From a virus, in the IMG/VR virus record IMGVR_UViG_3300027770_002285, positions 1 through 41,567 of that record: a stretch of DNA of 41,567 bases, one strand, 5' to 3'. Positions within the stretch are counted from its first letter, which is position 1. Each line of letters opens with the position of its first letter. The position numbers and the translations under genes are program-made. Below the pieces are notes generated by a model. That model saw only the letters and a program-made list of their open reading frames with translations. It had not been told where the DNA came from and did not search any database. Positions 1 through 35,439 of this stretch are shown piece after piece.

Positions 1-126
1 TACCCGGCCAGCACATTCAGCCACAATCAGCCGGGCGAACTTTTCTAATTCGTGAATTGGACACATACTACACACATCATCGTGTATGCCAGCCTGTTCA
101 GCAAGTTGTTGAAGTCGTTGATTCAT
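1..126 (-). CDS. Small hypothetical protein, 3' end outside window
   Basis: Forty-two codons are visible from an ATG at 126-124, reading MNQRLQQLAEQAG at the N-terminus and continuing off the left edge. The ATG overlaps the TGA of the upstream DNA glycosylase gene by 4 nt (ATGA), the usual sign of translational coupling in phage operons. The start 'LAEQAG' followed by a 'CSMCPIHELEKFARLIVAECA' type segment resembles short conserved phage proteins of unknown function. Two Cys in CSMC and a nearby His could bind a metal, but with the C-terminus missing this is only a guess. Confidence 0.6.
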   Translation of the reverse strand, partial: MNQRLQQLAEQAGIHDDVCSMCPIHELEKFARLIVAECAGRV

Positions 127-530
127 AATATTTCTTCTTCTAAATATCTCTTTAATTCTTTATCCAACGGCTGTACCGAGTAATTCTGTTTGAAAAATAT
201 CTCATAACTATCACTGCCATATTTACCGATACCATATAGGTCAGTAGCATCAATTCCATCCCAAGTCAACCAATCTCGGCTCATACCTACCAGACGCCGG
301 TATCTAACATTAGTCATGCCCAGAGGTTTGATAATGCTTTTGACAAATTCCTCGTCGGCGTTGATCAATGCGTCGGGTGTAGGAAACCAATATAGGAATT
401 CAGGTAGTGTGGTCTTAACAGGCTTGCGGCCAGTTTGGTTAAGCATGATCACGCCCACCATATGTTCCCAACTGTTGCGGATCTGTTGTTGTACCATTAG
501 ATCATCGCGTAAGGGTTCAAAGAATTTCAT
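123..530 (-). CDS. MBD4-like HhH-GPD DNA glycosylase (mismatch/base excision)
   Basis: A 135-aa protein that aligns by eye with the catalytic domain of MBD4, the eukaryotic thymine/uracil glycosylase of the HhH-GPD superfamily. Seen: an N-terminal segment like 'W..M....LNQT' (about residues 21-33), 'IIKPLGM.N.R' (66-76), the hairpin YGIGKYGSDSY (99-109), which matches the MBD4 HhH, and an Asp in PLDKEL (D123) where MBD4 has its catalytic Asp. The family flips out a damaged or mismatched base and cuts the N-glycosidic bond. Start: an ATG at 530 overlaps the TAA of the upstream 91-aa gene (TAATG) and has GGGAG 8 nt upstream. A longer version would need a TTG start at 545. The methyl-CpG-binding domain of MBD4 is absent, as in prokaryotic relatives. 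The substrate (G:T, G:U or a modified base) cannot be read from the sequence. Confidence 0.8.
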   Translation of the reverse strand: MKFFEPLRDDLMVQQQIRNSWEHMVGVIMLNQTGRKPVKTTLPEFLYWFPTPDALINADEEFVKSIIKPLGMTNVRYRRLVGMSRDWLTWDGIDATDLYGIGKYGSDSYEIFFKQNYSVQPLDKELKRYLEEEIL

Positions 531-805
531 TAAAGGTGCTCCCAAGTATTTCTATCATAATCCCAATGCCGCATATCGTAGAAATGCAGTTCTACAGCAT
601 ATCCAAACAGTCCCAGCATGATTCGAGCACCTGCATGGTCACCTGTAAATTTTGCATTGAATTCCACATCGATAATATATTCGGTGCGATATCCATTAAA
701 CTCCACGGCTTTGTGTTTGGTAATCGACCTGCTGATGTTCCATAGTATATCCCAAACAGAATTAGAATGCCATGGATTGGCAATGCTAAAGTTTAAATCG
801 ATCAT
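530..805 (-). CDS. Conserved small phage protein of unknown function
   Basis: A 91-aa protein beginning MIDLNFSIANPW and ending in a tryptophan- and histidine-rich segment around 'DHAGARIMLGLFG' and 'FYDMRHWDYDRN'. A C-terminus of the form DHAG...G..G....F.YD.RHW.Y recurs in small conserved phage proteins, but I know of no assigned function. Its stop overlaps the ATG of the glycosylase by one base. The ATG has no Shine-Dalgarno sequence and lies only 5 nt downstream of a perfect TATAAT -10 box (811-816), so the mRNA may be leaderless. No signal peptide or membrane segment. Confidence 0.75.
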   Translation of the reverse strand: MIDLNFSIANPWHSNSVWDILWNISRSITKHKAVEFNGYRTEYIIDVEFNAKFTGDHAGARIMLGLFGYAVELHFYDMRHWDYDRNTWEHL

Positions 806-810
806 ACAAT

Positions 811-839
811 ATTATACACAAAAAGAAAGGGTCCGTCAA
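811..839 (-). promoter_or_regulatory. Sigma70-like promoter overlapping the tmRNA terminator
   Basis: On the minus strand TTGACG (839-834) is followed by a 17-nt spacer and TATAAT (816-811). The -35 hexamer is exactly the loop of the terminator that follows the tmRNA gene. The expected transcription start falls at or next to the ATG at 805, implying a leaderless 91-aa mRNA. Seen: the hexamers and spacing. Inferred: activity. Confidence 0.6.
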
Positions 840-847
840 GACCCTTT
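820..847 (-). terminator. Intrinsic terminator of the tmRNA transcript
   Basis: AAAGGGTC (847-840) and GACCCTTT (833-826) form an 8-bp stem around the 6-nt loop TTGACG. CTTTTT follows on the minus strand. It lies just past the coding piece of the tmRNA and ends its transcription unit. Confidence 0.75.
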
Positions 848-849
848 GG

Positions 850-1270
850 TTGTTTTGGTAATAAGGTAAGTCCTACCTCACCAAAGCCTAAGCAGCTATG
901 GAATATAACTCGTCGTTTGCAGTTATGAAATTTGCTTGATTAACGGTCATCGCCTACCGTGCTGTCCACTCTGTTACTCTTTGCCCTGTCGAAACTATGC
1001 AGGCCCATTATAAAGTACACTAACCGCTCTGTTGCTACTGTATGCCTACAGCTTGTATCCATTCGTCTAATATACTTTATGGTGGACCTGGGGGGATTCG
1101 CACCCCCGTCCAGAACACTTTTCTCTTTGCTTCATACAGCAATAACTCTTATTTAACACACATAATGAAAGAGCACTTGCATATCTTCTTTGGCATACAC
1201 AACCTGTCTACGACCATACAGCCTTGCTTCTCTTTCCTGACCCAGGCATCTCAGTGTGCGTTAATCTTAC
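850..1270 (-). ncRNA. ssrA: Circularly permuted (two-piece) tmRNA
   Basis: tmRNA rescues stalled ribosomes and tags the nascent peptide for proteolysis. Read on the minus strand, the tRNA-like 3' half comes first: T-arm GGGGG-TGCGAAT-CCCCC (1107-1091), acceptor strand CAGGTCC (1090-1084), discriminator A, then CCA (1082-1080). A 73-nt intervening segment follows (1079-1007), then the 5' acceptor strand GGGCCTG (1006-1000) and the hallmark AGTTTCGACAGGG. GGGCCTG pairs over 7 bp with CAGGTCC and contains the G3-U70 pair recognised by alanyl-tRNA synthetase. P2 can form between 973-967 and 1117-1111. ACGGT/ACCGT gives a PK1-type stem. The tag frame lies at 920-888. A hairpin AGGTA/TACCT follows the tag. 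This order (acceptor piece, intervening segment, coding piece) is the permuted arrangement known in alphaproteobacteria, cyanobacteria and some betaproteobacteria. The outer ends (about 1270 and 850) are estimates, and the central pseudoknots are not resolved. CCA is encoded. Confidence 0.92.
888..920 (-). other. tmRNA tag reading frame ANDELYSIAA
   Basis: The resume codon GCA (920-918) is followed by AAC GAC GAG TTA TAT TCC ATA GCT GCT and TAG (890-888). With the alanine carried by the tRNA-like part this gives (A)ANDELYSIAA. It keeps the ANDE...Y start and the hydrophobic-Ala-Ala end of bacterial tags read by SspB and ClpX. The upstream bases CATAACT fit the usual context of a resume codon. 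Confidence 0.9.
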
Positions 1271-8873: not shown

Positions 8874-11198
8874 TTACAACTTACACGATTCGCAGTCTTC
8901 ATCTTCACTATAGATAGTAACTGGTTCTACTGCTACTAATCTGTCACTCTGTGTATTCAACACGTTTTTACTACCTGCCTTATCCAGAAGGCTATAATAC
9001 AAAGTTTTGATTCCCCACTTGTAGGCCAACATTAAGTTCTTAGAGATCAACGTAGCAGGTACCTTGCCATCCCTGAAATGTCGTGGACTGTAGAATGTGT
9101 TGGTACTTAGGCTTTGATCAATGTATGCTGCCAATACTGCTGATGTCTTTAGGTAATCAACACAGTCAGTCTGCTCCCACATGAGTTGATAACGATTCTT
9201 TAGTCGTCGATATTCTGGAACCACCTGTACAAAACTACCTGCCTTGCTTTCTTTGACGCTGATCAATTCCATAGGCATCTCAATACCGTTTGTGCTGTTC
9301 AATACAACACTACTGGATTCAACAGGAGCCACTGCCATCAGCGTGGCATTGCGGATACCATACTTCTTCATACGCTCACGCAGGGGTTCCCAATCCATGC
9401 TGGGAGTAAAGTCGGTAAGTTCGTTAACACCCTTGGCCCTACGCTCCCAGGGAAATACTCCCCGACCGTAATAGGTGTGTTCGCTACGCAGACATGGGCC
9501 ACGCTCTTGGGCCAATTCCACACTGGTTTCGGTAAGGTAGTATGCTTGATGTTCCATCCAACGCTTGACTTCGGCCAGTGCTTCTGGGGTGCCATATTTA
9601 AAACTACGACGAGCATGCCAATAGGCCAAGTTTGTGATGCCAACGCCGAGAGGTTCGAAGTCTGTATTGGCCAACTTGCTTTGTATGCTTAGGAAGTCTT
9701 GATAGTTTAATAGATTGCTTAGACTGCGGACCAACACACGACACGCCTTACGCATCTCCTGTGGGTTCTTAAATGCACCCCAGTTTATGCTGCCAAGAGT
9801 GCAAAGAGCGATTCGCCCCTCCGGATCTTCAATTCTTTGGAAAGGACGGGTGGGTAGAAGTATTTCTTGGCATAGATTTGATTGATAAATGGGATCAAGC
9901 GTTGTATCAAATGGACCCTGATTGATGACGTTGTCGATATTGACAAGATAGATGCGCCCCGTATCAGTACGCTCTTTAAGAATGCCGTTTTTGAATATCT
10001 CATCTGCTGATACGCTTTTCTTTTTAATCGTCGGATGCTTTTCATAATTTAAGTATAGTGTTTCAAATTCTTTGCTGTCTCTGTAATAGGCTTCATATAA
10101 GTCCGGAACATCATGTGGATCAAATAGTGTGATCATCTCACCACGCTTGTAACGATTCCAGAACATGGCATTAACTACTACTGAGTAATCCATTTGACGC
10201 ACACGAGTTTCATCTGTACCTTGATTGTTCTTCAATACAATAAGGTCTTCGAACTGATAATGCCAAACGGGAAATGTAACTGTACAACTGGCATTGCGTA
10301 TACCGCCTTGGCTACAACTACGCAAATCTGCGAACCATTTCTTTAAGAATGGTATCATACCCGTATGTTTGATCTCACCGTTGCGGATTGGAGCACCTAA
10401 GGGTCTGATTCTGCCAATTTCAAGGCCAATTCCGGCTCGTTTTGATGCATATTTGGCCATCATTTCACCAGAAGCGAAGATACTGTCCAGAGTATCATCA
10501 CTGCTGATAAGTACACAGCTACTGAACTGCTTAGTAGTAGTACCAAGCCCAGCAAGCACAGGTGTAGCCAACGTGAAATGCCCCGCCGAGGCACATTCAT
10601 AATATTCTTTAACATACTTGAGTCTTGCCTCCTTGGGTTCATTATGAAACGCAGTGGCAGCGGCGATAGCATAGCGTACCTGAGGAGTTTCAAATATTTG
10701 TCCTGTTGCACGATTTTGCACCAGATACTTTTCACACAGTTGAGCGATAGCAGCAAATGTATAAGTTTCGTCTTTGTCGTGATCGATAAAGAGATCAATT
10801 ATATCCCATTCTTCTTTTGTATACCAGTCTAACAATTCTCGAGTATACATGCCTGATTCTATATTACGTTTTACAATATCATGAAGTGACATTGGCTCAT
10901 ATTGGCCGTATACTTCTTTTCGTAACATACTAACACGTTGACGTCCTGCCACATATTGATAGTTAACATTATTAATTTCTGGATTTTCACTTTCGTCAAT
11001 CAAATCCACCATAGCCTTAAGTAGTAGTTCGTCTATGGTTTCAGTAGTCATTCCATCGTGTAGTTCTATTTGTGCTTTAATCTCTACCATACTCGGGCTG
11101 ACACCGTCGATACCTTTACATGCATGGGCCACCTGTCTTTGTATCTTCTCGATGTCCATGGGTACACGATCCCCATTGCGTTTAACTACTGTAATCAT
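8874..11198 (-). CDS. nrdA: Ribonucleotide reductase class Ia, alpha subunit
   Basis: The 774-aa catalytic subunit reduces ribonucleoside diphosphates to deoxy forms. An ATP-cone (VVKRNG..., residues 3-93) is present, so dATP feedback control is possible. Active-site residues are conserved: C228 in FSSCV, N441-C443-E445 in NLCQE, C466 in ALCTLG, the radical-transfer pair in TLYY, and the redox tail CESCKL (769-774). Numbering is offset +3/+4 from E. coli. It lies 27 nt upstream of nrdB. Only a moderate ribosome site (AGAAG) is visible, and GTAAATA lies 28 nt upstream. It supplies dNTPs for phage replication. Confidence 0.97.
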   Translation of the reverse strand: MITVVKRNGDRVPMDIEKIQRQVAHACKGIDGVSPSMVEIKAQIELHDGMTTETIDELLLKAMVDLIDESENPEINNVNYQYVAGRQRVSMLRKEVYGQYEPMSLHDIVKRNIESGMYTRELLDWYTKEEWDIIDLFIDHDKDETYTFAAIAQLCEKYLVQNRATGQIFETPQVRYAIAAATAFHNEPKEARLKYVKEYYECASAGHFTLATPVLAGLGTTTKQFSSCVLISSDDTLDSIFASGEMMAKYASKRAGIGLEIGRIRPLGAPIRNGEIKHTGMIPFLKKWFADLRSCSQGGIRNASCTVTFPVWHYQFEDLIVLKNNQGTDETRVRQMDYSVVVNAMFWNRYKRGEMITLFDPHDVPDLYEAYYRDSKEFETLYLNYEKHPTIKKKSVSADEIFKNGILKERTDTGRIYLVNIDNVINQGPFDTTLDPIYQSNLCQEILLPTRPFQRIEDPEGRIALCTLGSINWGAFKNPQEMRKACRVLVRSLSNLLNYQDFLSIQSKLANTDFEPLGVGITNLAYWHARRSFKYGTPEALAEVKRWMEHQAYYLTETSVELAQERGPCLRSEHTYYGRGVFPWERRAKGVNELTDFTPSMDWEPLRERMKKYGIRNATLMAVAPVESSSVVLNSTNGIEMPMELISVKESKAGSFVQVVPEYRRLKNRYQLMWEQTDCVDYLKTSAVLAAYIDQSLSTNTFYSPRHFRDGKVPATLISKNLMLAYKWGIKTLYYSLLDKAGSKNVLNTQSDRLVAVEPVTIYSEDEDCESCKL

Positions 11199-13367: not shown

Positions 13368-13443
13368 CATGGAAGGGCTACTTATTCAGGGCGTAGTACT
13401 CTTCGACCTTTTACAATTGTGATCACACATGATAAATAATATT

Positions 13444-13995
13444 ATGAAAAAATCATATGTATACGCTTATTTAAGAGATGACAGAACTCCGTACTATATT
13501 GGCAAAGGTGTTGGGAATCGTTATAAGAATCCTCATAACGTAACAGTCCCCCCGGCCGATCGCATACAATTTATTAAAGAAAATTTAACAGATCGAGAAG
13601 CAATTAAATTAGAAATTGAACTTATTGCTAAGTATGGCAGGAAAGATTTAGGTACTGGAATCTTACGTAATTTAACTGATGGTGGTGAAGGTATGTTAAA
13701 CCCGAGTCTAAGTATAAGAAAAAAACTATCCGATGCTAAAATAGGTAAACTTCCAAATAATTACGGTAAGAAATATACATCGGGACCATCTGCTGCTAAA
13801 AGTTTATCTAAACAGGGAGTGAATAATTCTATGTTTGGAAAAACTCATAGTGACAAAATTAAAGAACTAATAGGTATAAGTTCGGCGGAAAGATATAAAC
13901 TTATACCTATTGTTGAATGTCCATATTGCGGTAAGACTGGAAAAGAACCACCAATGAGAAGATGGCATTTTACAAAATGTAAACTATCACCCTAA
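13444..13995 (+). CDS. GIY-YIG homing endonuclease with NUMOD3-like repeats
   Basis: The protein opens with YVYAYLRDDRTPYYIGKG, the GIY-YIG nuclease signature with the catalytic Arg region (GVGNRY) following. The middle has repeats like LSDAKIGKLPNNYGKKY and NNSMFGKTHSDKIKE, matching the NUMOD3 DNA-binding motif of phage homing endonucleases. The C-terminus has ECPYCGKTG...HFTKCK, a probable zinc finger. The start is taken as the ATG at 13444 (MKKSYVY), because the earlier ATG at 13429 lies in AT-rich sequence upstream of the conserved part. It stands alone on the + strand, with its 3' end overlapping the convergent exonuclease gene by 9 bp. This is typical of a mobile, free-standing endonuclease. 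No intron is visible. Confidence 0.9.
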   Translation: MKKSYVYAYLRDDRTPYYIGKGVGNRYKNPHNVTVPPADRIQFIKENLTDREAIKLEIELIAKYGRKDLGTGILRNLTDGGEGMLNPSLSIRKKLSDAKIGKLPNNYGKKYTSGPSAAKSLSKQGVNNSMFGKTHSDKIKELIGISSAERYKLIPIVECPYCGKTGKEPPMRRWHFTKCKLSP

Positions 13996-22338: not shown

Positions 22339-25300
22339 TTATCTACGCACGAAATGATAATCACCATCAGGACCATTGTTACAAAATAATCCAAGACAAT
22401 CAAATCCCTGATCGTGCATATATTTTATAACCTCGTCGCGCAATGGAGCACCTTTATTATACTCAACCACCTGTAGTTCTAATATGATGTGTTTGATATT
22501 TCTTATGGTTTCCATTGCGCCTTTAAGAACATCCAATTCAGCACCTTGAACATCCATTTTAATTAGATCAGGCAACGGTAATGCTTTCAATCTAACTATA
22601 GCATCAAGCGTTACTGATCTTAATTTGCGTCGATGAGATTCATTATACAATTTAGATGCATCAGGATTAATATCGGGATTTTCTCTATAATAACTGCTAC
22701 CAGCTGGGTGATAATCATTTTGATAGAAATCTATTTCTTTACCGGTTTCATTACTAAGCACCCCTATATGATATTTAAATCCTCGTTCAGCATATAAGAA
22801 TTCGCAATCTTTCACTGCTTCAAACAATACATAGTCTGCATTGGGCCAAACACGTTGAGCTTCGTTAGTCCAGTGTAATACAGATGCTCCTAAATCATAT
22901 ATAACTTTTGGATCAACTCCTGTTTCCTTCATTTTAGCGAGATAATTTATATGATCAGTTGGAAGTAATCTCTGACTTTCAAGGTTCCTCAATCTTGATT
23001 TAATATCGGTTGTTTCATCACTCTCTATTACCGGAATATTTGTATCTACATTAAATGTAAAACTGCCTGTATGTCTACATAAAATATTAGGATCTGCCCA
23101 AATTCTAAAACCTTTGTCTTTGGCCTTTCTACAGAAGTCAACATCTTCGGAGACTGTATCGTTCATTGAGATAGCACTATAGTATTTGAATTGTGGATAT
23201 CCTATAGCCTTCATGACTTCTGCCTTGACTAATACACATCCAAATCCACATCCGGCAATCTCAACCAATGTCCTACCTTTTAATTTTCCATAAGGCATAT
23301 TAGTAACGCCACCAGTTGGGGTTGGTTCATAAATTTCGAGTATGTGTTGTCCTGGTTTTCTCTGTATATATAGTCCACTGACCACATCTTTATCATGTGA
23401 TAATAATCTTGTTAATGTGTCAGGAGAGAATGAAATATCACTGTCCACAGAGAACAGATAATCATAACCATTAACTACCCAATCTGCTATAAGATTTCTA
23501 ACCTGATCTATATTGTATCCAAAGAAGTATTGAAAATCTGCCTTGTATCCTGCTGGAATAACAAGATCATATATACTCTTAAATGTGTCAGGTTCGATAT
23601 TTCTGGCAGTTGGAATACCTATCAATATTCTTTTTGTAACAGGGGGTGCTACAACAGGATTAGGTACTTCTACTGCCGTTACCTGGGCAATCCTTTGTTC
23701 ATTTATTTTATGCTTGATATCGTTGTATATCATTCGTTCACGTTCTAAAAATCCACCAGTTATATCGGTGTCGGATGTAGTAACGGCAAATTGTGTAAAG
23801 TGGTCCATGTTTGTTATAAGATAATTTATTTTTCCATTTGTCAATTGCAAATTGAATATGAAGTCGTCGCCGAAATATATTTCAAGCCCTTCGGGTATAT
23901 CAGTCCATGCATCTTTATGTAAGAACATAAGAGATCCAAACCCATATGTATGTTGACCTGTCCAAGGTATTATATCAATGCTTTTATCTGTTACAGGAAC
24001 TTGATCAAAGTCCGACACTCCGGGACATAATCCAAATACTCCAACATCCCCTGACAGTAGATATTGTAACCGAGTGAAAATTAATGTGTCAAAAACAACA
24101 TCATCATTAACTATGCAGAGACGGTCATTCTTTGATAAATTTACTCCAATGTTCCATGCAGGATTTACATAGATGTTTTTTCCATAGTTCAATACTTTAA
24201 TCTTCGAATTAGATAATACTGCCGACTCTGGAGTATGTGTTTCATCGTTATTGATAATGATAATTTCACCAACTGATGGGCAATCACATAATGTTTGTAA
24301 GAATCCTAAAAATTGATCTGCGACACGCCACATAGTAGGAACGACAACAGAATATTTTTCTATCCTATTCTTATTAACGATTTGACGAGCATTTTTATTT
24401 TGTTCTTCTCCATTGACTTTATAATCATTTAAAGGACTGGCATCATTATAATTATAGACGATATCTTGTAGACATTTAACCTTGTTGGGATCTGCTGCTT
24501 CTATCAATGCATAGAATACACTACCATCTCCGCCGGCTTTATACCATTGTCCTTTATCATCTTTAAATTGACTGTCATTGATGTCATTCAATAATTCTTT
24601 GCGGAATGTACGTAAATGTGTATAAGGTAAAATCCAATTGAAATGATGTTGTCTGTATAATCTTTTTTGTTTTATTTCATCTGGATAGGGTTGACTGATC
24701 AATGGAATATTATCGACCATGCTCCAGCATGATCCATATGCGAAATCAGTTGTTCCATCGTAAATTGAGTTGTAACGAGATAAAATCGTATTGTCGTTGA
24801 CAAGACTGTCATCACCATCAAGTAACATCACAAGTGAATCATCACTAACTAACAATCTAATATTTTCAATTTGGTTTCTGACCGCACCGACATTTTCAGT
24901 ATTTGAAATTAAAGTAAATTTATTTCTTATATCCTCAGGCAATGATAGAATAGTAGACCTGGCTATTTCTACCGTATTATCAGTACTGTTATCATCTATA
25001 AGAATGTGTTGATAATTATTGTAGTCTTGTGTGGCTACACTGATAATACAACGATTGATATATTCAGCACAGTTGTAGAAGGCACTAACAATCGCAATCT
25101 TCTGCTCGTTACCGGTTTTATAATTTTCTAATTCAATGGTATTATGGAATTTTCTGTTCCAAATTTTGTGTACTCTACGATTGATCTCGGATACCTTGCG
25201 ATAATCATTTCTTGACAAATATTTGCCCAGACGCTTACCTATCAATTGTTTCCATTGTAGAGCCACACTATCCCACCCTGCTACATCTTTAACTATATTA

Positions 25301-26427
25301 CAATAATATTGTTTCTGTTGATGTAGGTATTTGTTGTTGTAGGCCTGTACGGTCATCGCTACAAATTGTTCCACTTGCTGGGGTGTATTGATATCAGGGA
25401 ACAATCCATTTGGCTCTATAGCATAATCAATATGATAACATGCTCCCTCTAATGCGATTTCTTCCAATGCACCAAATCTACAGGTCAATACAGGTGTATT
25501 GTATAACAGACTTTCTAATGTTGATATACCAAACGTCTCAGGAAATGCTGCTGGATATATCATAAAATTAGCAACAGTCAATATGTCAGCTATTTCACGT
25601 TGAGGAATCACTCCTGTAAACTCTATACCCATGTCCGCTAATTTAGGATCAGCTGCCATTACTCGCCAATCTTTTTCCTGTTGATCGGGTTCTGAGTTGT
25701 TACTAAATCTATAGTAGCCGCCGATGACTTTTAATTTTGCAGTAGGGATATGTCTTTTAACATGTGGCCATATGAGATTAACCAAAGGTATCATACCTTT
25801 AGTCACACTGGCATTATAAACAAACAAATCGGGATCTTTGGCAGTGATGTCCACTTCACTACGATAGTTCTTAGCACCATTACGTGTGATAAACATCTTA
25901 CGTTTCAGCACTTCAAAGTTACGTCTACGTCCATGATGGCAGTTGGCTACATATGTTAGATGGAAATCGCTCAGTGTGAATACATCTGTAATTCGATCGG
26001 CCACGACTAATTCTTCTATTAGGTTATCGCCTAAACAGAATGTATCATGCATCCAGAGTATACGCATTTTGCATTTACTCATAATACGATTATATAAATC
26101 CATATTGCGGAATGGATTGGCTCTGTAGTCTCCTAATTTATCATAGTCGTTAGGATCGGTAAATGGTATTATTGTTCTTGAGCTTATCACCACATCAAAC
26201 TGATGGTCTTTTGCTAAATCACTGAGTGGAACATATTTTACGCGATCGTAAACCCCCGGTCGTGCATGATCCAACTCGCAATTATTAAACACAGTGACTT
26301 CAAAACCAATCTGTGCTAATTCTCGGGCCATAAGTGTCACTGCACTTTCACTACCTCCAAGCCCCCTGGTGTCTATGGTAGTACCATCATATGGTATACC
26401 AATAATATCTATAATAGCAAGTTTCAT
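22339..26427 (-). CDS. Five-domain glycosyltransferase/FkbM methyltransferase fusion, 1362 aa
   Basis: Residues 1-400 form a GT-B glycosyltransferase of GT4 type, with LGGSES (23-28) and the E-x7-E of PETFGISTLE (E297, E305). Residues 440-690 are a GT-A domain of GT2 type (SAFYNCAEYI, IDDNSTDNT, LLDGDDS at 535-541). Residues 690-905 are a second GT2-like domain (VVVPTMWR, NNDETH, VNDDVVF at 773-779). Residues 930-1130 are a third GT-A-like domain (IGIPTARNIE, SVDSDISF at 993-1000). Residues 1175-1362 are an FkbM-type SAM-dependent methyltransferase (IYDLGAS, FEAV, KMDVQGAELDVLKG). It can thus in principle transfer several sugars and methylate the product. It has its own sigma70-like promoter 10 nt upstream and sits between tail-fibre genes. 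The target (fibre, DNA or surface glycan) is unknown. Confidence 0.88.
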   Translation of the reverse strand: MKLAIIDIIGIPYDGTTIDTRGLGGSESAVTLMARELAQIGFEVTVFNNCELDHARPGVYDRVKYVPLSDLAKDHQFDVVISSRTIIPFTDPNDYDKLGDYRANPFRNMDLYNRIMSKCKMRILWMHDTFCLGDNLIEELVVADRITDVFTLSDFHLTYVANCHHGRRRNFEVLKRKMFITRNGAKNYRSEVDITAKDPDLFVYNASVTKGMIPLVNLIWPHVKRHIPTAKLKVIGGYYRFSNNSEPDQQEKDWRVMAADPKLADMGIEFTGVIPQREIADILTVANFMIYPAAFPETFGISTLESLLYNTPVLTCRFGALEEIALEGACYHIDYAIEPNGLFPDINTPQQVEQFVAMTVQAYNNKYLHQQKQYYCNIVKDVAGWDSVALQWKQLIGKRLGKYLSRNDYRKVSEINRRVHKIWNRKFHNTIELENYKTGNEQKIAIVSAFYNCAEYINRCIISVATQDYNNYQHILIDDNSTDNTVEIARSTILSLPEDIRNKFTLISNTENVGAVRNQIENIRLLVSDDSLVMLLDGDDSLVNDNTILSRYNSIYDGTTDFAYGSCWSMVDNIPLISQPYPDEIKQKRLYRQHHFNWILPYTHLRTFRKELLNDINDSQFKDDKGQWYKAGGDGSVFYALIEAADPNKVKCLQDIVYNYNDASPLNDYKVNGEEQNKNARQIVNKNRIEKYSVVVPTMWRVADQFLGFLQTLCDCPSVGEIIIINNDETHTPESAVLSNSKIKVLNYGKNIYVNPAWNIGVNLSKNDRLCIVNDDVVFDTLIFTRLQYLLSGDVGVFGLCPGVSDFDQVPVTDKSIDIIPWTGQHTYGFGSLMFLHKDAWTDIPEGLEIYFGDDFIFNLQLTNGKINYLITNMDHFTQFAVTTSDTDITGGFLERERMIYNDIKHKINEQRIAQVTAVEVPNPVVAPPVTKRILIGIPTARNIEPDTFKSIYDLVIPAGYKADFQYFFGYNIDQVRNLIADWVVNGYDYLFSVDSDISFSPDTLTRLLSHDKDVVSGLYIQRKPGQHILEIYEPTPTGGVTNMPYGKLKGRTLVEIAGCGFGCVLVKAEVMKAIGYPQFKYYSAISMNDTVSEDVDFCRKAKDKGFRIWADPNILCRHTGSFTFNVDTNIPVIESDETTDIKSRLRNLESQRLLPTDHINYLAKMKETGVDPKVIYDLGASVLHWTNEAQRVWPNADYVLFEAVKDCEFLYAERGFKYHIGVLSNETGKEIDFYQNDYHPAGSSYYRENPDINPDASKLYNESHRRKLRSVTLDAIVRLKALPLPDLIKMDVQGAELDVLKGAMETIRNIKHIILELQVVEYNKGAPLRDEVIKYMHDQGFDCLGLFCNNGPDGDYHFVRR

Positions 26428-26490: not shown

Positions 26491-29466
26491 TTATTTTATT
26501 GGTATACTGGTTGGGGGTGTAAAGGTGCTGGTTGTATATCTGGCCATTTTAGTGAGTCTAACGTCGTCGACATATCCAGAAAAAGAACGGGCTCCACTGG
26601 AGAAATATGGATAGTATCCAACATAGAAGCTGGAGGTAGTCGTTTGTAATGCAGTGGTACCGGCAGATGCTGTTACTTTTGACACCCCGTTGATAAACAG
26701 AGAGATCGTACCATTATATCTAACTAACGCAAGATGTGTCCATACATTGATAGTTGGTATAACAGTAGAATTTAATGTATACGTCCAAGATCCACCACCT
26801 GTTGCGAAATAAGCATAAATTATATTAGTCGTTTCTGTAATTAATATCCATCCATTGGTATCTGCTAAACCGGTATTGGCCAGCAACGGTTGATATCCAG
26901 CAGTATTGGTAGTAAAGTAAAACCATCCTTCTGCTGTGAAATTACCTGCACTAAAATTTGCAACCGAAATATTTGTTGCTCTTAATGCAGTAGAAATAAC
27001 ACCATTAAAATACATACTTTTTGAATATAAAACATTTCTTCTTACGGTAGCAGTTGAAAGAGTAGCAGCATTTACCGTAGCAATACTGATATTTCCTCTT
27101 TGATCAATTATACCAGCATTGGTAAAATTCAGTAATAATGAAGTTGCTGTAGAAGTGTTGATAGGTCTTAATGGTGAGAGTGGCGGACTAAAATATACAG
27201 TACCAGTGGTATGACCTACTGGATAAACAAGACTATTTGTTACCCTAAAATTACTCATATATCCAGTAAAATAGCCATCAGCACCACTATTAATAGTGCC
27301 TACATCAAAATTTGATCCCACAGCATATACACCTGCGGTGCCAGTTGACGAAAGTTTTCCGTTGATATATGCTCTAACAATATAAGGACTAACACTACTA
27401 TATGTAATAACAAGATGGAACCAAGCATTAAGAGGAAACAATCCAGTAATATTTGCACCGGCGCCATCGTTTCCTTGATATCCAAATTTATTCGCATTTA
27501 TATTTCGTATTACATTAACTTCTCCAGTTCCACCATCATATAATCCAATTATTGACGAAAGAAAAGAATATATCCAAGTTTCTATAGTAAGGTCTCCACC
27601 GGCAGTAGCTAATACCCCTGCCCCTGCTTTGCGTAGATAATCCGTGGTACCATTGAAATAAGCAGATCCGCCCTGAACTAAAGAACTATAGGTACCCTGA
27701 GGTGGAAATGGTGAGAAACGATGTATTCTTGGTGTACCAGCAATAGTAAAAGTAGCAGTTGTACCACTTGCATCTACAAATCTACTATTTCCACAAATTA
27801 ACAAACCTGTTTGTGTACTAATAACTGATAATGGTGCAGTGGGAGTAGTAAATGTGGAAGTATAAAGTGCAGTACCTTTTATTATACGTACATTGCTGAT
27901 ATATCCATTAAAATAATCTACAGTTGATATTCTACCTATTTGTACAACAGCACCATCGCCCATGGTAACAGATCCAGTTTGTGTCGCACCTTCTTGTACA
28001 CCATTTAAGAACAATTTCCAACTGCCCACTGATCCTGATAATGCTGCATGATACCAAGTGTTAGCAGCTAATGTAGTAGTTCCAGATATTAAAGTAGTAT
28101 CTCCAGTTAATGCTACTCTCATAACACCGGATAATAATTTAATACTCCATCCAGAACTTCCACTGGCATATTGCGATACTACCGTTTGATTTGTAGTTGC
28201 GGTAGTAGTGGTATAAAACCATGCTTCAGCTGTCATAGGTGATACGGATGCACCAGATCCAAAAGTTAAATTTGTAGTTTGAGGAATACTCAAATAATCA
28301 GTAGTACTATTAAAAAACACGCTCCAATTAGGTCCATATGGACTAAAGGATCCTTGTCCTGGAATACCATTGGGAGTGGTAATAGAAAAATTATTGAAAC
28401 TACTGTCTAAAAATCTGTTGTTAGTTGCAGTTGAAGTTACACTACTTCTATCAGATAAAATCAAGGTGGTATATTTGATATTAGAGTCTTGCAGATTTTC
28501 TTTGTTTGAGAAATAATTTGGATCTTTATATCTTAAAATGACCGCACCAGCGGTAGCGTAAATGCCAGATAATGCACCGGCTACACCGGATCCATATGTT
28601 CCTGTGGTATCAAAAAAGCTAATTGAATTTGTCCCAGCAGCACCCGAAGGAATCGCCGCTGGTGATGGTGATGCTTTGGCTCCACCGGATCCAGTGGTCA
28701 CAGTTGATGTAGATATTCCTGCATAATAATTTCCGCCTCCACTGGCATAAGTCGATGATATCGGAGTACCGGACTGAATTCCTACAAGGCTTTGTCCAAG
28801 TCCACCATAATAACCACCACCGCCACCACCGCCCCCGCCGCCGTCAACAGACCCGCCATAGTTTGCGCCTGCTCCACCTGATAAACTTGTTCCATTTGCA
28901 CCAACCGGTTGATATCCACCACCGGATGCTGGAACATCATTGGCCGATCCTTCGTCAGCACCACCTGCGCCTGCTCCACCACCTGCAACAACCAGATAAC
29001 CGGTTGCGGTATATATTCCACTCCATCCACCGCCACCACCACCACCACCTGATGACGGAATCGTACCGGCATTTCCCCCTGGCCCGCCTCCATTGGTTCC
29101 GCCGGCTCCGCCGCCTGTGCCGATCTGACCTGGACCAAGTCCAGATTGTCCGCCACCACCGACTGCTATAGTGTATGCAGTATACGGTGATATAATCAAA
29201 GTACCGGTGATAACAGCACCTGCGGCGCCGCCCGCGGTACCATTGGCCCCACTATCAGCACCACCCCCACCACCACCTGCACCAATCACTGCTACATTGA
29301 CAATAGAGGTAGATAGAGCATATGGAAAATTTACAGTATAGGTACCAGTGTTTTGAAAAACTAAATTGGTATAACCATCAGATGAATAACTTACTGTCGC
29401 TCCTGTTGGGAGATACTCGTAAAAAAAATATCTTTGTCTTTTAATTATACCAAGGTCGTAGGTCAT
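26491..29466 (-). CDS. Tail fibre with Gly-rich sandwich and three LamG-like domains, 991 aa
   Basis: A short N-terminus with LGIIKRQRYFFYEY is followed by a beta strand region and a long Gly-rich domain (about 55-310, runs such as GAGGGGGGADSG). Such Gly-rich stretches form polyglycine-II type bundles in phage adhesins. Three concanavalin/LamG-like domains follow, each opening with 'FNGTTDYL' and 'T.E.W.Y' and closing with 'F.GY.S..R...G.AlY'. They are typical of carbohydrate-binding fibre tips and are largely paralogous to those in the 1852-aa fibre. The gene starts 2 nt after the 117-aa gene. Confidence 0.85.
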   Translation of the reverse strand: MTYDLGIIKRQRYFFYEYLPTGATVSYSSDGYTNLVFQNTGTYTVNFPYALSTSIVNVAVIGAGGGGGGADSGANGTAGGAAGAVITGTLIISPYTAYTIAVGGGGQSGLGPGQIGTGGGAGGTNGGGPGGNAGTIPSSGGGGGGGGWSGIYTATGYLVVAGGGAGAGGADEGSANDVPASGGGYQPVGANGTSLSGGAGANYGGSVDGGGGGGGGGGYYGGLGQSLVGIQSGTPISSTYASGGGNYYAGISTSTVTTGSGGAKASPSPAAIPSGAAGTNSISFFDTTGTYGSGVAGALSGIYATAGAVILRYKDPNYFSNKENLQDSNIKYTTLILSDRSSVTSTATNNRFLDSSFNNFSITTPNGIPGQGSFSPYGPNWSVFFNSTTDYLSIPQTTNLTFGSGASVSPMTAEAWFYTTTTATTNQTVVSQYASGSSGWSIKLLSGVMRVALTGDTTLISGTTTLAANTWYHAALSGSVGSWKLFLNGVQEGATQTGSVTMGDGAVVQIGRISTVDYFNGYISNVRIIKGTALYTSTFTTPTAPLSVISTQTGLLICGNSRFVDASGTTATFTIAGTPRIHRFSPFPPQGTYSSLVQGGSAYFNGTTDYLRKAGAGVLATAGGDLTIETWIYSFLSSIIGLYDGGTGEVNVIRNINANKFGYQGNDGAGANITGLFPLNAWFHLVITYSSVSPYIVRAYINGKLSSTGTAGVYAVGSNFDVGTINSGADGYFTGYMSNFRVTNSLVYPVGHTTGTVYFSPPLSPLRPINTSTATSLLLNFTNAGIIDQRGNISIATVNAATLSTATVRRNVLYSKSMYFNGVISTALRATNISVANFSAGNFTAEGWFYFTTNTAGYQPLLANTGLADTNGWILITETTNIIYAYFATGGGSWTYTLNSTVIPTINVWTHLALVRYNGTISLFINGVSKVTASAGTTALQTTTSSFYVGYYPYFSSGARSFSGYVDDVRLTKMARYTTSTFTPPTSIPIK

Positions 29467-29468
29467 TT

Positions 29469-29822
29469 TTATTCTGTGGTATTAAGAACCCAATTTTGAA
29501 CGTCTTCATTCCATTCGTACATGGCAATCTCATCTGGAGCGGGTACAGGAGGTTCCCAATTGCAAGTATCTTCATTAAGAATCCAGCTTGGGTATGGTTT
29601 TGGTGGAATAAATGCATCTCTTACAGAGTCATATGTATAACCAGCACCTGCATAGTTTTTACGAAGAGGAGTACCACCTAATCTATGTTGTCCTGCTAAT
29701 GTATTATAACTGGTTTGAACCCAAGATGAAGGATCTCCAAATAATCCAGTATTAATGACGTCTTGCTCTATCACAAGGACTTGAGTGACAATACCATTCT
29801 CGATTTTTGCGAAATGACTCAT
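29469..29822 (-). CDS. Conserved small tail-associated protein, 117 aa
   Basis: MSHFAKIENGIVTQVLVIEQD...WVQTSYNT..G.HR.......LRKNYAGAGYTYDSVRDAFIPPKPYPSW.LNE...W. This order of blocks is highly recurrent in aquatic phages beside tail-fibre genes, where it is annotated as conserved hypothetical or tail-fibre-associated. It lies between two LamG fibres, has GGAGAT before the ATG, and a late-promoter-like ATAAATA 32 nt upstream. A fibre chaperone or baseplate-associated role is likely but unproven. Confidence 0.85.
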   Translation of the reverse strand: MSHFAKIENGIVTQVLVIEQDVINTGLFGDPSSWVQTSYNTLAGQHRLGGTPLRKNYAGAGYTYDSVRDAFIPPKPYPSWILNEDTCNWEPPVPAPDEIAMYEWNEDVQNWVLNTTE

Positions 29823-29853
29823 TGGTTAAATCTCCTTTTATTATAGACTATGA

Positions 29854-29860
29854 TATTTAT
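29854..29860 (-). promoter_or_regulatory. Late-promoter-like ATAAATA
   Basis: AATAAATATC 32 nt upstream of the 117-aa gene, in the 58-nt gap after the 1852-aa fibre gene. Confidence 0.55.
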
Positions 29861-29880
29861 TAATATCTATTTTTGATATG

Positions 29881-32800
29881 TTAACGAAGTGGTAACTTGC
29901 CAGGAATAGTGAATGACCCAACCCCAAAGGTGCTGGTAGTGACAAAGTTTCCAGGTATGTATAATGGCAATGTTGGAAATAAGTGATTACCTGTATATCT
30001 ACTAAATCCCCTTGTTATACGAAGTTCATCGATATATCCATAAAAATCTTGATTGGATGCATTAGGATTGCATCCTATATATATACCCGCAGTAGAACTA
30101 TAATTATATAAAATGTATGGGGTGCCGTTTAGACCCCCGGCTAATATAAAACCATTTTTATATCCAAATAGCAATAAACCTTTCCTTGTTACAGCGATAT
30201 GCATCCATTCACCTGAAGTAAATGTACCCGCCGGGAATGTTACTCTTATGGTAGTTGATTCATAAAAACCACCACCACCATCAGTATTAATAATTAATTG
30301 GAATTCCCCAGTGGTGAATGTACCTTGTGATAGTATTTTTACTGTGGTATTGAGCCTTAACATATACATCCAAAATTCTATGGTAAAATCTGCATAGCCT
30401 AAAGAATTTTGAATGCCCGGTGAAGTTAACAGATATTGTCCTACTCCGTTAAAGAAGAAACTCGAAGGGGTATTTTTTAATACACCTGTGGTAAATGGCG
30501 ATGTACTTTGAATTGAATAAAGATTACTGTAAGTAGCTGTATTAACGTTGGTAATGGTAGCATTATTACTACTTCTATCTCGTAGGTTTATACTATTATT
30601 TGTTTCATCAACTGTTACATCTAATAATAACTGTGTTCCGGAAATTGCAGACATTTTTCCTATTGGTGGACTGAATGTGCTGGTGGTATAAACCGCAGTA
30701 CCATTAACCACACGAAGATTAGAAATAAGGCCGTTTAAGAAGGGACCTGATCCGAGATTACCTGTGCCAATTTGAGTTAATCTTGTTTGACTAAAACTAT
30801 AGGTACACGCTACAGGAGTTCCTCTTATTCCATTTACATAAATTACAGAACTTCCCGAAGTTCTTACTGCGGCTATATGATACCATTGTCGAGCTATTAA
30901 CGTAACTGGGGATAACGCATACACAGTCGTATCATTTGTTATTGCAAACTGTCCACTGCTTCTAAAGTTAAGATGGAAATCTCCTGTAAAAAAAATCTCT
31001 GGTGATGATGTGGGTACTGCACCCAAGTATATCCAACATTCAACAGTAAAATCATTTGTACCAAATGCATAATTTGAGTTTATAGGAAGAGTTAGGTATT
31101 GTGAAATTCCATCAAATGATACACTTCCTACTTGTGTATTTCCATCAATCCAACTGCTTGACAATGTTAAATTACTTCGGTTGATTGCAACCGCATTTGA
31201 AGTATTAGATGACGTATTAATAAATGGGGATCGATAATTAAATACCGTGGTACCAACATTATTTAATGTTGATCCTATAGGACTACTATCAACAATATGG
31301 CTGGTGCTCGAAGATGCCCTTAATAGTAATACTGTGGTACCTGTTGTACCAACATCTTGCAATGGTCCTGTAGGAACAGAGAAGACAGGTGTATTATAAA
31401 CTGCTGCACCTTTGACTACACGAACATTGGTCATATACCCGGTAAAATAAGCGTTTAATGCTTGACCAACACCGGCACTATTGTTGGTAAAGAAGGCAGA
31501 CTGTGTGGTCATATCTTGATTAGTCCATTTATATCCTACACCGTTTATGTATCCAGTGACATTGGTACTGGCCGCAATAGTTCCATCTACAACTAATGCT
31601 ACATGAGTCCAGGAGTTGACACTGAATGGTGTTGGATGTGTCAATCGAAGTTCAGCACTGGGGCTGATGGTGTAATTGAATGCAAGACTTGCGCTATTAG
31701 AAGTCACGGTATTGACAGCGCCTAAGTAAAATCTACCATTTGCCCCGGTGTTGGTATAATTACCAAGTATTACAAAAATGTTTGCCCCGGTGGGTGCAGC
31801 CGTTGGATATATCCATGCTTCTATAGTAGTGACTCTTCCAGTGAATCCAACCATTATTCCGTTAAAGAAAGAAGCTGTGCTTAAATATTGAGTTGAACCG
31901 TTAAATGATATGCTACCTTGAGTTGAATTAGAAATTAAATTGTTATTCATAGTAGCATCTACCACAGCACCATTATCAAAGTTTAATAACAATGAAGTAG
32001 AGGTACTGGTATTGATAGGGGTTAATGGTGCATTTGGAATTGATATAGTAGTTGTTGTTGTACTATATATCCCTGTACCTTTTATCACTCTAAAATCACT
32101 GATATAACCATTGAAAGAAGCTGTAAGAGGTGAAAACCCCGAAGTACCTATTATAGGTCTACCAACACCGTTTGAAAAATCAGTAGCATCAATGAAGGAG
32201 GATTGTCTCGCTGTTCCGTTAACATATAGATTCATGTAACTGCTTGTTCGAATTAATGCAACATGTATCCATTGGCTTGCAGTTGTAGAAAAGGATGTGG
32301 CAGTCGTATGATATTGTCCATTAAAGTTCACCCTTATGGTTCCTGAGCTTGTATACATAATGGAAGGATATGTTCGTCCTGCCCAACTTCCTAATGGTCG
32401 AGAATCGTATATTGTAGCAGTGGAAGTTGGCCATGTTCGAGGATACATCCAAAATTCTATACTAAAATCACCAGTACCAAATGCGTATGACGATGTTGAA
32501 CCATTTAACATCAAATAATCCGAAGTACCATTAAAGTAAGCACTATTACCATTAAGCAATGGATTATAGATTTGTTTATTAGGAAACGGTGAAAATCTTT
32601 GCACCGAAGGATATCCAGAAATAATTAAAGTTGCTGTTCCTGATAGATTAGTAAATCTATTGGTAGCACATGTCAATAAAACTGTATCAGAAGTTATTGG
32701 TAATGACGAGGTAGGAGGAGTGAAATTGCCTGTATATGCTGCTGATCCATTAATCACACGTACATTAGAAAGATAACCATTTGCTCTGTGTATGATACCT

Positions 32801-35439
32801 CCACCTTCTATTGTTGCTCCTACAAATGTCCCGGTTGTTGAGGTATTAACCATAAATGTACTTAGTGTTGCAGTACTGGCAGCAACACCGTTAACATAAA
32901 ATGTCAATCCACCTGTACCGGTACTGGATCTAACCAATGCAAGATGATTCCAGGTATTTGGGCCAATCCTTGGGCCTGCTAATCCATATGTCATTACCAT
33001 GACATTGTTTTTACCATTGCTCGGTGACGGGTCGGCATAACCGGTAGAGACATCATTGGTAGCAACAGTAGCGGTTGTTTTTCCAAGAACATAGTTTTCG
33101 AAATCTAAGTCAGGTCTTGCAATAGATAAAACTTTTGTGTAATTAAGTGAATATGTGGTTCGAGGATTAGGATCCTGGGTACCATATGATCCAAATAGTA
33201 CAGATGTGATTACTCCAACGGGCGCGGTAAACGTAAATGATTGCCCTTCCGCGGTCGAAGCACTGCCTACCCCAACAGAGCCAAATGGCATTCCAGATCT
33301 TGATACCCCTAATGAAAATGCATTATTCTGTGCTCCTTGCCCTATGATGGTCATGGAATTTGAAGCAGTGAATCCAGGATTACTTTGTCCTGTAGAATAA
33401 TATATCCATCCTTCTATGGTAAAGTTATTATAACCAAAATTAAATGCCGATACATCTGATGTTGATAGATAATCTGTAGTACCATTGAAATTATTGCTCC
33501 AATTTGATCCATATGGATTTATCGTGCCTTGTGTTATTGTACCTGTAGAAGTAGTAACAACATTATTAAAACTACTATCGATAAAAATATTGTTTACTGT
33601 AGATGTAGATACAGTACCTCCGCTCAACAAAAGAGTATTATATCTAAAATATGGATCATCTATTGGACCAATTACAGAAGTTGTAACAGTGGATGTAACT
33701 GAATCAGTTGGATATCTTATTATCACCAGGCCTGACCCACCATTACTGCCGGCATGAATAGCAGGGGTTCCGGGTGCGTAGCCCCCGCCCCCGCCCCCAC
33801 CACCTGAGTTACCTTTTCCAGCTGTTGAATATACAAGGGCCGCGGGTGCGGTGATATTACCGTTAGAACCAATACCACCGCCGCCCCATCCACCAGGAGC
33901 TCCATATTGAAAATATGGTCCGGCGGCAGGCGCAGCTGCGCCTGTTCCACCACCACCTCCACCTCCATAATATACAATATTTGTAGAAGTTATATATTCT
34001 CCTATGTTAAATGCTATAGCCAGTGCAGTAGTAATTATTAATGTTGAAGTTCCTGTTCCGCCGGTGCCTGCATTGTTACTCGTATCTCCCGGTAGTCCAG
34101 TTTTCCATGCCCCGCCACCGCCTCCCCCACTATCGAACACACCTGGAGCAGTAGGAGCACCGGCGCTTCCACTACTTCCAAGTCCGATGGCATATCCTGA
34201 GCCGTCGCCGTAGATAACCTTATCTTGTAATGGAAAGCCAACTGCTGGAGATCTAAGAGGTCTACCTTGTCCACCACCGGATCCTCCAACTCCTTCCACA
34301 GAGGGGGCACCTGGATCACCGCGCCCTCCTTGGCCGCCGCCAAGCCCGACAATTATACCACCAATGGTGGTGTCATTACCAGTTCTTCCAGCAGAATTTG
34401 CTCCTGGACTTCCTGTTCCCCCTGATCCTATAGATATAGTATGTGATCCCGGTGGAAATATTAGAGAAGGACTCCATGCTACTCCTCCAGCGCCACCACC
34501 ACCACCTAAATAGCCACCACCACCACCACCACCACCTATTACGAATACCTCTAACTTTGCAATATTTTGTGAAACATTTAATACACCGGATGATCTAAAA
34601 ACATGAGTTGTATATCCAACATTTGCTATAGTAGAAGTAAACGAGAAATTTGTTGGATTGTTGATATAGGTTGGACCAAATGGTTGAGAATACACACCAC
34701 CTACATTTGCAATCGTAACAGTGCTCGTACCTATATTTCTAATGTCAGGTGTTTGAATTAAAACTACAGTAGATGATTCAGTAATGGCAGAGATATTTGT
34801 ATCTGCACCTTGAGTTATACTCAATGGAGGAGTGGGTACAGTAAAGTTTCCAGTGTAAACTCCAACACCTTTTACAAAACGGAAATTAGAAATAGACCCA
34901 GCGAAGTAAGTGCTACTAACAGAATCCCAACGACGACCGAGATAAAAATTACCTATCGCATTAGTAGTCCAAGATATACTTCCACTATTAACTAATGTTC
35001 CATTTAAAAATAATCTTGTTGTAGTACCATCAAATGATGTTGCTATGTGATACCATGTGTTCAATGATATCGGAGTAGGAGAAACCAATATATTCCACCC
35101 GGAAAATCTACCTACATAGAGATATGCTCCAGGAAGATTTGGATCTGTTGCTGAGGAAAGGTCAGTAAATCCCATGGCAAATTCAACCTGACTGGTGATA
35201 ACAGATGATATAACGGCTACTCCAGTAAATGCGGTAACATAAACCCATGCTTCTACTGTGAATGGAGTACTTGTTGTGGGTAATGTTAAACTACTACCAG
35301 TAATGCTCAAATACTGCGTAGCACCATCAAACGGTATTGAAAAAGTACTGGGATCAATCGGAGAACTACCGATTATGTTTAATACAGGTTTTTGTAGATA
35401 GCGCTGTTTTCTTGTCAGCCCCATTTGTGGTGATGCCAT
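29881..35439 (-). CDS. Giant tail fibre with six LamG-like domains and a Gly-rich domain, 1852 aa
   Basis: N-terminus MASPQMGLTRKQRYLQKP, then a first LamG-like domain (DGATQYLSITG...TVEAWVYV, about 35-210). A Gly-rich domain follows (about 290-560, starting VFVIGGGGGGGGYLGGGGG). Five more LamG-like domains then begin at FNGTTDYLST, FNGTSDYLML, FNGSTQYLST, FDGISQYLTL and FNGVGQYLLT, each with 'F.iE.W.Y' and a closing 'G.is..RvvnG.avY'. Each domain would be a jelly roll able to bind sugars. The many paralogous modules suggest growth by duplication and shuffling. It starts 13 nt after the 328-aa Gly-rich gene. Confidence 0.87.
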   Translation of the reverse strand: MASPQMGLTRKQRYLQKPVLNIIGSSPIDPSTFSIPFDGATQYLSITGSSLTLPTTSTPFTVEAWVYVTAFTGVAVISSVITSQVEFAMGFTDLSSATDPNLPGAYLYVGRFSGWNILVSPTPISLNTWYHIATSFDGTTTRLFLNGTLVNSGSISWTTNAIGNFYLGRRWDSVSSTYFAGSISNFRFVKGVGVYTGNFTVPTPPLSITQGADTNISAITESSTVVLIQTPDIRNIGTSTVTIANVGGVYSQPFGPTYINNPTNFSFTSTIANVGYTTHVFRSSGVLNVSQNIAKLEVFVIGGGGGGGGYLGGGGGAGGVAWSPSLIFPPGSHTISIGSGGTGSPGANSAGRTGNDTTIGGIIVGLGGGQGGRGDPGAPSVEGVGGSGGGQGRPLRSPAVGFPLQDKVIYGDGSGYAIGLGSSGSAGAPTAPGVFDSGGGGGGAWKTGLPGDTSNNAGTGGTGTSTLIITTALAIAFNIGEYITSTNIVYYGGGGGGGTGAAAPAAGPYFQYGAPGGWGGGGIGSNGNITAPAALVYSTAGKGNSGGGGGGGGYAPGTPAIHAGSNGGSGLVIIRYPTDSVTSTVTTSVIGPIDDPYFRYNTLLLSGGTVSTSTVNNIFIDSSFNNVVTTSTGTITQGTINPYGSNWSNNFNGTTDYLSTSDVSAFNFGYNNFTIEGWIYYSTGQSNPGFTASNSMTIIGQGAQNNAFSLGVSRSGMPFGSVGVGSASTAEGQSFTFTAPVGVITSVLFGSYGTQDPNPRTTYSLNYTKVLSIARPDLDFENYVLGKTTATVATNDVSTGYADPSPSNGKNNVMVMTYGLAGPRIGPNTWNHLALVRSSTGTGGLTFYVNGVAASTATLSTFMVNTSTTGTFVGATIEGGGIIHRANGYLSNVRVINGSAAYTGNFTPPTSSLPITSDTVLLTCATNRFTNLSGTATLIISGYPSVQRFSPFPNKQIYNPLLNGNSAYFNGTSDYLMLNGSTSSYAFGTGDFSIEFWMYPRTWPTSTATIYDSRPLGSWAGRTYPSIMYTSSGTIRVNFNGQYHTTATSFSTTASQWIHVALIRTSSYMNLYVNGTARQSSFIDATDFSNGVGRPIIGTSGFSPLTASFNGYISDFRVIKGTGIYSTTTTTISIPNAPLTPINTSTSTSLLLNFDNGAVVDATMNNNLISNSTQGSISFNGSTQYLSTASFFNGIMVGFTGRVTTIEAWIYPTAAPTGANIFVILGNYTNTGANGRFYLGAVNTVTSNSASLAFNYTISPSAELRLTHPTPFSVNSWTHVALVVDGTIAASTNVTGYINGVGYKWTNQDMTTQSAFFTNNSAGVGQALNAYFTGYMTNVRVVKGAAVYNTPVFSVPTGPLQDVGTTGTTVLLLRASSSTSHIVDSSPIGSTLNNVGTTVFNYRSPFINTSSNTSNAVAINRSNLTLSSSWIDGNTQVGSVSFDGISQYLTLPINSNYAFGTNDFTVECWIYLGAVPTSSPEIFFTGDFHLNFRSSGQFAITNDTTVYALSPVTLIARQWYHIAAVRTSGSSVIYVNGIRGTPVACTYSFSQTRLTQIGTGNLGSGPFLNGLISNLRVVNGTAVYTTSTFSPPIGKMSAISGTQLLLDVTVDETNNSINLRDRSSNNATITNVNTATYSNLYSIQSTSPFTTGVLKNTPSSFFFNGVGQYLLTSPGIQNSLGYADFTIEFWMYMLRLNTTVKILSQGTFTTGEFQLIINTDGGGGFYESTTIRVTFPAGTFTSGEWMHIAVTRKGLLLFGYKNGFILAGGLNGTPYILYNYSSTAGIYIGCNPNASNQDFYGYIDELRITRGFSRYTGNHLFPTLPLYIPGNFVTTSTFGVGSFTIPGKLPLR

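Follow-up and report, generated by a model that had tools for sequence, protein, structure and literature searches.

The 41,567-base window analysed here, which is the whole of a linear virus record and probably a fragment, carries on its minus strand a complete gene for a circularly permuted tmRNA. We put at about three in four the probability that this gene specifies a working, phage-owned tmRNA for host-SmpB-dependent ribosome rescue in infection; the reading is based on sequence, and every step after transcription is one that we infer. The gene belongs to a published kind, and the parts worth pursuing are the exchange of the tRNA elbow and the protein genes within tmRNA spacers.

The tmRNA gene and its conservation

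The tmRNA_permuted model (RF04321) scored 133.9 bits at positions 888-1141 of the minus strand (Rfam gathering cut-off 47), and the beta_tmRNA model (RF01850) scored 122.4 bits (E 5.7e-37, cut-off 84) at 824-1184 on the same strand, matching model positions 1-331 in full. The E-values of the covariance models, 3e-26 and 6e-37, exclude a chance match. ARAGORN called the gene at 797-1172, minus strand, with the tag ANDELYSIAA. A circularly permuted, two-piece tmRNA had been claimed by the first-pass annotation, which named covariance models and tmRNA finders as the means to check it, and both kinds of search bear the claim out. It had placed the gene at 850-1270, with the tRNA-like 3′ part before the 5′ part on one strand: the order stands, but the position does not, the complete precursor gene extending by the beta_tmRNA model over about 1184-824 on the minus strand.

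Read 5′ to 3′ on the minus strand, the gene consists of the tRNA-like 3′ half, a spacer and the 5′ half, the CCA end falling at 1080 and the GGG start at 1006. The core of the acceptor piece (1080-1141) comprises the P2 5′ strand, the T-arm, the 3′ acceptor strand CAGGUCC, A73 and an encoded CCA (1082-1080); its T-loop, UGCGAAU (1096-1102), has G55 instead of U55. The intervening sequence (1007-1079) is exactly 73 nt long, the separation originally given. The coding piece starts with the 5′ acceptor strand GGGCCUG (1000-1006), which pairs with CAGGUCC at 7/7 positions, including the G3-U70 wobble, which is the alanine identity pair, again as noted before. Next comes the D-loop, CAUAGUUUCGAC (988-999), which includes UUUCGAC (TTTCGAC in DNA; 988-994) and has A18 paired off with G55. 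In the Rfam alignment, ACAGCA (960-965) is the partner of UGCUGU (1141-1136), and these outer P2 strands, paired in the window, join the two pieces. The tag frame (888-920) runs cleanly from the resume codon GCA through ANDELYSIAA, with a hydrophobic residue before the final Ala-Ala, to the stop UAG, and an intrinsic terminator of the tmRNA transcript, with a 9-bp stem and a T-rich tail, lies at 826-847, minus strand. With the helices, G3-U70 and the tag frame all intact and a terminator following, the gene is predicted to be functional, in agreement with the first-pass annotation, which had missed G55 of the T-loop and A18 of the D-loop.

Two further elements flank the gene on the same strand. 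Immediately upstream is a 78-aa ORF (1277-1513), which is an ORF only. A σ70-like promoter sequence, TTGACG-17-TATAAT (811-839), an 11/12 consensus match only, overlaps the terminator hairpin and lies upstream of ORF 805-530.

Conservation of helices was assessed in 29 related tmRNAs, where only P2a and G3-U70 are independent tests: P2a was not used to pick the sequences, whereas pairing of the T-stem and acceptor stem was partly required by sequence extraction and is to that extent circular. In P2a, 96.6% of cells were paired and double changes were found in six of the seven pairs (for example, CUG-GAC/GAC-AGG replaced by CAA-GAC/GAU-UGG), and G3-U70 was invariant (29/29). When partners were slid by 1-3 columns as a control, pairing dropped from 98.7% to 36-56%.

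Predicted function and competing readings

In the reading that we prefer, the spacer would be removed by host RNase P and 3′ processing enzymes, and the two pieces would afterwards be held together by the acceptor stem and P2. Host AlaRS would charge the phage tmRNA, and ribosomes that had stalled on broken mRNA would receive it through host SmpB. The growing chain would be tagged with (A)ANDELYSIAA and directed to host proteolysis, and the freed ribosome would become available for phage mRNA. SmpB was detected in none of 42 phage records, a weak absence as most of them are fragments, by a search that was positive in 10 of 14 control genomes; host SmpB would therefore have to serve. In T4 infection, host tRNAs are degraded but host SsrA remains stable (PMC9697503), in keeping with rescue still being needed.

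An AA end is present in 120, and an [LIVM]AA end in 119, of 134 distinct phage tags, which vary more than the bacterial tags compared. This variety, with 14 tags lacking the AA end, could be taken to mean that a phage, with a tag of its own, directs host proteins into degradation and so recycles amino acids, as proposed by the authors of the Melnitz report (PMC9004378), or to alter the fate of tagged phage proteins. Such selective tagging appears improbable for the window, whose tag is of ordinary length and has an IAA end shared with bacteria (3 of 29 distinct bacterial tags). The RNA might also be a decoy that, by binding to host SmpB or to stalled ribosomes, blocks trans-translation in the host, a role suggested for the tRNA-like, tag-less RNA of mycobacteriophage DS6A, and a TLD-only phage RNA is indeed reported to inhibit tmRNA in E. 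coli (PMC4131195, PMC11915505). However, the window and nearly all phage relatives retain what a decoy would not need, namely a tag frame, a resume codon and an Ala-Ala end, and we think it quite unlikely that the RNA acts in this way.

Phage context and known relatives

The window contains phage genes for ribonucleotide reductase subunits, tail-fibre and lectin-domain structural proteins, an exonuclease and a homing endonuclease. The ribonucleotide reductase large subunit gene, nrdA (8874-11198, minus strand; phrog_84, E 1.6e-267), served as the landmark for the position of the tmRNA. As to other genes, a homing-endonuclease-like ORF (13429-13995, plus strand) lies amid minus-strand genes, and an ORF with an HhH-GPD base-excision-repair domain (123-545, minus strand) is close to the contig end. 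A 1362-aa protein with glycosyltransferase-like and methyltransferase-like stretches is encoded at 22339-26427 (minus strand), and 26491-35439 (minus strand) encodes two very large proteins, of 991 and 1852 aa, in which lectin-like (Laminin_G_3) or virion-structural matches recur, the larger having its best kin in phage DSL-LC04 and cyanophages.

The nearest NrdA of an isolate is that of Xanthomonas phage X1 (60%), followed by those of Stenotrophomonas phages such as IME-SM1 (55%); X1 and IME-SM1 each have gp23 and a permuted tmRNA. Relatives in viral contigs were taken as the best 80 loci by NrdA, 82-93% identical to that of the window. Among these 80, RF04321 was found in 25 records, and in all 23 where the tmRNA could be placed (23/23) it follows nrdA on the same strand, at a distance of 3.6-8.0 kb; of 25 loci whose sequence extends 9 kb or more downstream, 11 have it in this position. 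The gene is phage-encoded, as had been claimed, given its constant place and strand relative to nrdA. Assignment to a T4-type phage does not follow from the window itself, a 41.6-kb fragment with no gp23 major capsid protein, but is supported by relatives G109 (NrdA 84% identical) and G007, which have gp23 together with a permuted tmRNA. Within a T4-related phage group the tmRNA gene is resident, though optional; its absence from many close relatives shows that it is not essential to the group. Habitat-like features of the relatives suggest that the group is a freshwater one, and the gene, sitting in the minus-strand nrd region, would be an accessory, recombining locus of these phages.

The same comparison bears on whether the gene belongs to the phage. 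A 41.6-kb linear record that is probably a fragment might be chimeric, a bacterial gene having been fused to phage DNA by misassembly, and a host contig so joined had been named beforehand as grounds for discarding the claim. The conserved nrdA-linked place and strand in 23 contigs, the permuted tmRNA near nrdA in isolates X1 and IME-SM1 and the lack of a near match in the sampled bacterial genomes contradict this; we consider it extremely unlikely and reject it. It is also very unlikely that the gene is a passenger, i.e., a tmRNA gene that was captured or is decaying and has no function, left for example by imprecise prophage excision. While tmRNA genes often serve as integration sites (PMC9004378, PMC11915505) and the presence of the gene among relatives is patchy, the gene is complete down to its terminator, compensatory changes and matched elbows are seen among diverse phages, and no integrase was identified among the proteins searched.

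A close copy of the window tmRNA was found neither in 289 Alphaproteobacteria genomes nor in 369 genomes of the Gammaproteobacteria class, two of which gave local matches of only 34-37 nt; these samples are thin, and Burkholderiales may be under-sampled. Permuted tmRNA is nevertheless held by 131 of 142 of the Alphaproteobacteria genomes. The first-pass annotation had pointed to acquisition from, or descent alongside, a lineage with two-piece tmRNA. Acquisition from a host finds no support in this comparison: recent host capture was rejected for want of a close copy in the sampled genomes, and for the same reason the gene looks old in phages.

The first-pass annotation had further called a permuted gene in a T4-type phage unusual, which is not supported: such a gene is published for Melnitz, another is present in IME-SM1, and they are abundant in viral contigs, at least 120 permuted tmRNA loci being retrieved by one pattern scan. 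The Melnitz paper lists 53 two-piece structures in a 2021 phage database, 50 of them aquatic (PMC9004378), and the T4-type Stenotrophomonas phage Marzo has a beta-class tmRNA (PMC8928761), which in its relative IME-SM1 is permuted. These data confirm trans-translation RNA as a widespread phage-carried function in water and supply a large set for comparison from which to ask why tmRNA is retained by phages.

The window gene shares with RF04321, in which alpha-, beta- and cyano-tmRNA are merged, the gene order, acceptor stem, D- and T-arm positions, P2, tag frame and spacer; it differs in being held by a phage and in its 73-nt spacer, compared with 3-47 nt in the bacterial tmRNAs compared. Body and resume region are like those of RF01850, over whose whole length the score was obtained. 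However, the window has UGCGAAU with UAG where the Rfam consensus has UUCGAUU with UGGUUUCGAC (UUC T-loop, GG D-loop), and because this UUC/GG elbow is absent the gene was not filed as plain beta-type. The tmRNAs of Bxz1, Wildcat and phage G are of the one-piece form and have no spacer, unlike that of the window; mycobacteriophages Bxz1 and Wildcat and Bacillus phage G are listed as encoding tmRNAs in PMC4131195. Melnitz (a Methylophilales phage) and Mosig (a Pelagibacter phage) likewise have permuted tmRNA as T4-type water phages, but the window falls in a different sequence group, and the gene of Melnitz is related by its authors to SAR11 (PMC9004378). In the set of Stenotrophomonas phages IME-SM1 and Marzo (PMC8928761) with X1, IME-SM1 and X1 have gp23, the tmRNA near nrdA and NrdA 55-60% identical to the window's. 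Unlike the window, this set has a U55/G18 elbow, the tags VAANDDSYTVRIAA and VAANDADYSVARYA, and the tmRNA before rather than after nrdA.

Permuted tmRNAs without annotation in the stretch shown were seen in isolates Xanthomonas phage Rb1 (L002), Xanthomonas phage X1 (L004), RcXuper (L889), CcrBL9 (L890) and DSS3P8 (L891). In Stenotrophomonas phage QDWS359 (L003), an opposite-strand “hypothetical protein” call at 1472-1889, probably spurious, overlaps the permuted tmRNA.

Elbow types and spacer genes

We find it fairly probable that phage permuted tmRNA genes are a modular and partly dual-coding locus, with exchange of an elbow cassette and a spacer that serves as a nest for small genes. The T-arm, spacer and D-loop would form one contiguous cassette, and matched elbow types (U55/G18 and G55/A18) would be exchanged as blocks. 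In many phages the spacer would house a small selected protein gene whose ribosome-binding site often lies in the spacer-end stem, and translation of this gene may compete with folding or processing of pre-tmRNA. The window has the variant elbow and no spacer gene.

Position 55 of an ordinary tRNA T-loop is the pseudouridine site. The window has G there, a point against a working tmRNA, although alphaproteobacterial tmRNAs have it too, and its elbow is G55/A18 in place of U55/G18. Among 230 distinct viral permuted tmRNAs, collected by scans that always left position 18 free and fixed letters of the T-loop or, in the U55 set, G19 alone, U55 occurred with G18 in 123/123 and G55 with A18 in 105/107; allowing one extra spacer base, the two exceptions (AGGUUUCGA) can also be read as A18. 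All 68 bacterial permuted tmRNAs retrieved by the G55 pattern had A18 (68/68), and the G55/A18 kind was found in 30 tmRNAs from Alphaproteobacteria and in two from the Gammaproteobacteria class. As this elbow is present in Alphaproteobacteria, SAR11 among them, its invention by phages is ruled out. A 2005 paper had already noted G55 in Caulobacter, and GG in the mitochondrion of R. americana (PMC1168896); we found no report of 18-55 co-variation in tmRNA in the papers searched. Co-variation of two positions that sit on separate RNA pieces speaks for their direct tertiary contact within the tmRNA.

Mapped onto a tree of 26 NrdA proteins, the elbow shows at least 10 changes of state, and elbow types therefore pass between close relatives. 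Loci L183, L190 and L199 agree at 38/38 bases in the 3′ flank and at 23-25 of 26 in the 5′ flank, and yet carry three different T-arm/D-loop cassettes. The tmRNA gene is a mosaic, that of the window combining a beta-like body with an alpha-like elbow. Because permutation puts both halves of the elbow beside the spacer, one exchange could move the matched pair, and permutation would thus let the elbow move as a unit. In L165 and L221 (L272), the T-arm is apparently of 6 bp with a GGCAGUU loop.

Phage permuted tmRNAs have longer spacers than the bacterial ones compared. An ORF was scored in a spacer if it covered at least 60% of its length, had a ribosome-binding motif and had its stop at the end; expected numbers came from dinucleotide shuffles that kept the last four bases. 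Spacers of 60-84 nt contained ORFs in 3 of 114 cases (expected 2.5), those of 85-114 nt in 26/131 (4.5), those of 115-149 nt in 23/105 (2.8), those of 150-179 nt in 60/92 (1.8), and still longer ones in 4/7 (0.03); the three scans that gave most of the long spacers required TGATGGG with the frame left free, and the fractions are not unbiased frequencies. Complete spacer ORFs are present in L164, L167, L168, L169, L191, L199, L310/L311, L785, L813, L837 and others. Of the 113 with at least 20 aa, 83 stop 1 nt before the coding piece, and the ribosome-binding site is often directly 3′ of CCA. In 15 clusters of spacer ORFs, pN/pS was 0.24 in total and below 0.42 in each, a sign of purifying selection, and third-position changes were the commonest in the larger clusters. 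By eye, many of the peptides resemble single-membrane-span peptides.

The spacer ends pair with each other in runs of at least seven pairs in 277 of 292 spacers without an ORF (72 when ends were re-paired at random) and in 78 of 92 spacers with one (44 at random). In ORF-bearing spacers an AAAGGA motif is often inside the end stem, so that translation of the spacer and folding of the precursor could compete. In the window, the spacer ends form a 13-bp stem prolonging the acceptor stem (MFE -24.4 kcal/mol, z -2.8), and the 73-nt spacer is a plain hairpin with no complete ORF; an ATG frame running out of it (940-1062) lacks a good ribosome-binding site and was judged a chance occurrence. Its relatives L191 and L199 have spacer ORFs of 26 and 37 aa.

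Text searches found no description of protein genes in tmRNA spacers in the literature; a 2025 paper on a tmRNA database names a tRNA gene and a repeat as spacer contents, but not protein genes. If the dual-coding reading is true, protein genes within the spacer of a structural RNA are an overlooked class, missed by RNA and protein annotation alike, and could link translation to tmRNA maturation. Three other spacer ORFs compared with isolate phages by tblastn gave no match. Independent support for spacer genes comes from the peptide of L169, which matches phrog_13558 (E 9.8e-13), and from that of L352, which matches Pfam CxxCxxCC above the cut-off. The SsrA gene of the cultured phage Melnitz (L887, MZ577097.1) has a 142-nt spacer with an unannotated ORF, MFKWLSK...IPKYLSGT..., which is preceded by GGAG, continues into the coding piece and resembles the spacer ORFs of L613, L739 and L743. 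Independent support also comes from one family of spacer peptides, a homologue of which, Mosig_00134 (69%, E 3e-11), is annotated as a free-standing gene in the baseplate region of Pelagibacter phage Mosig.
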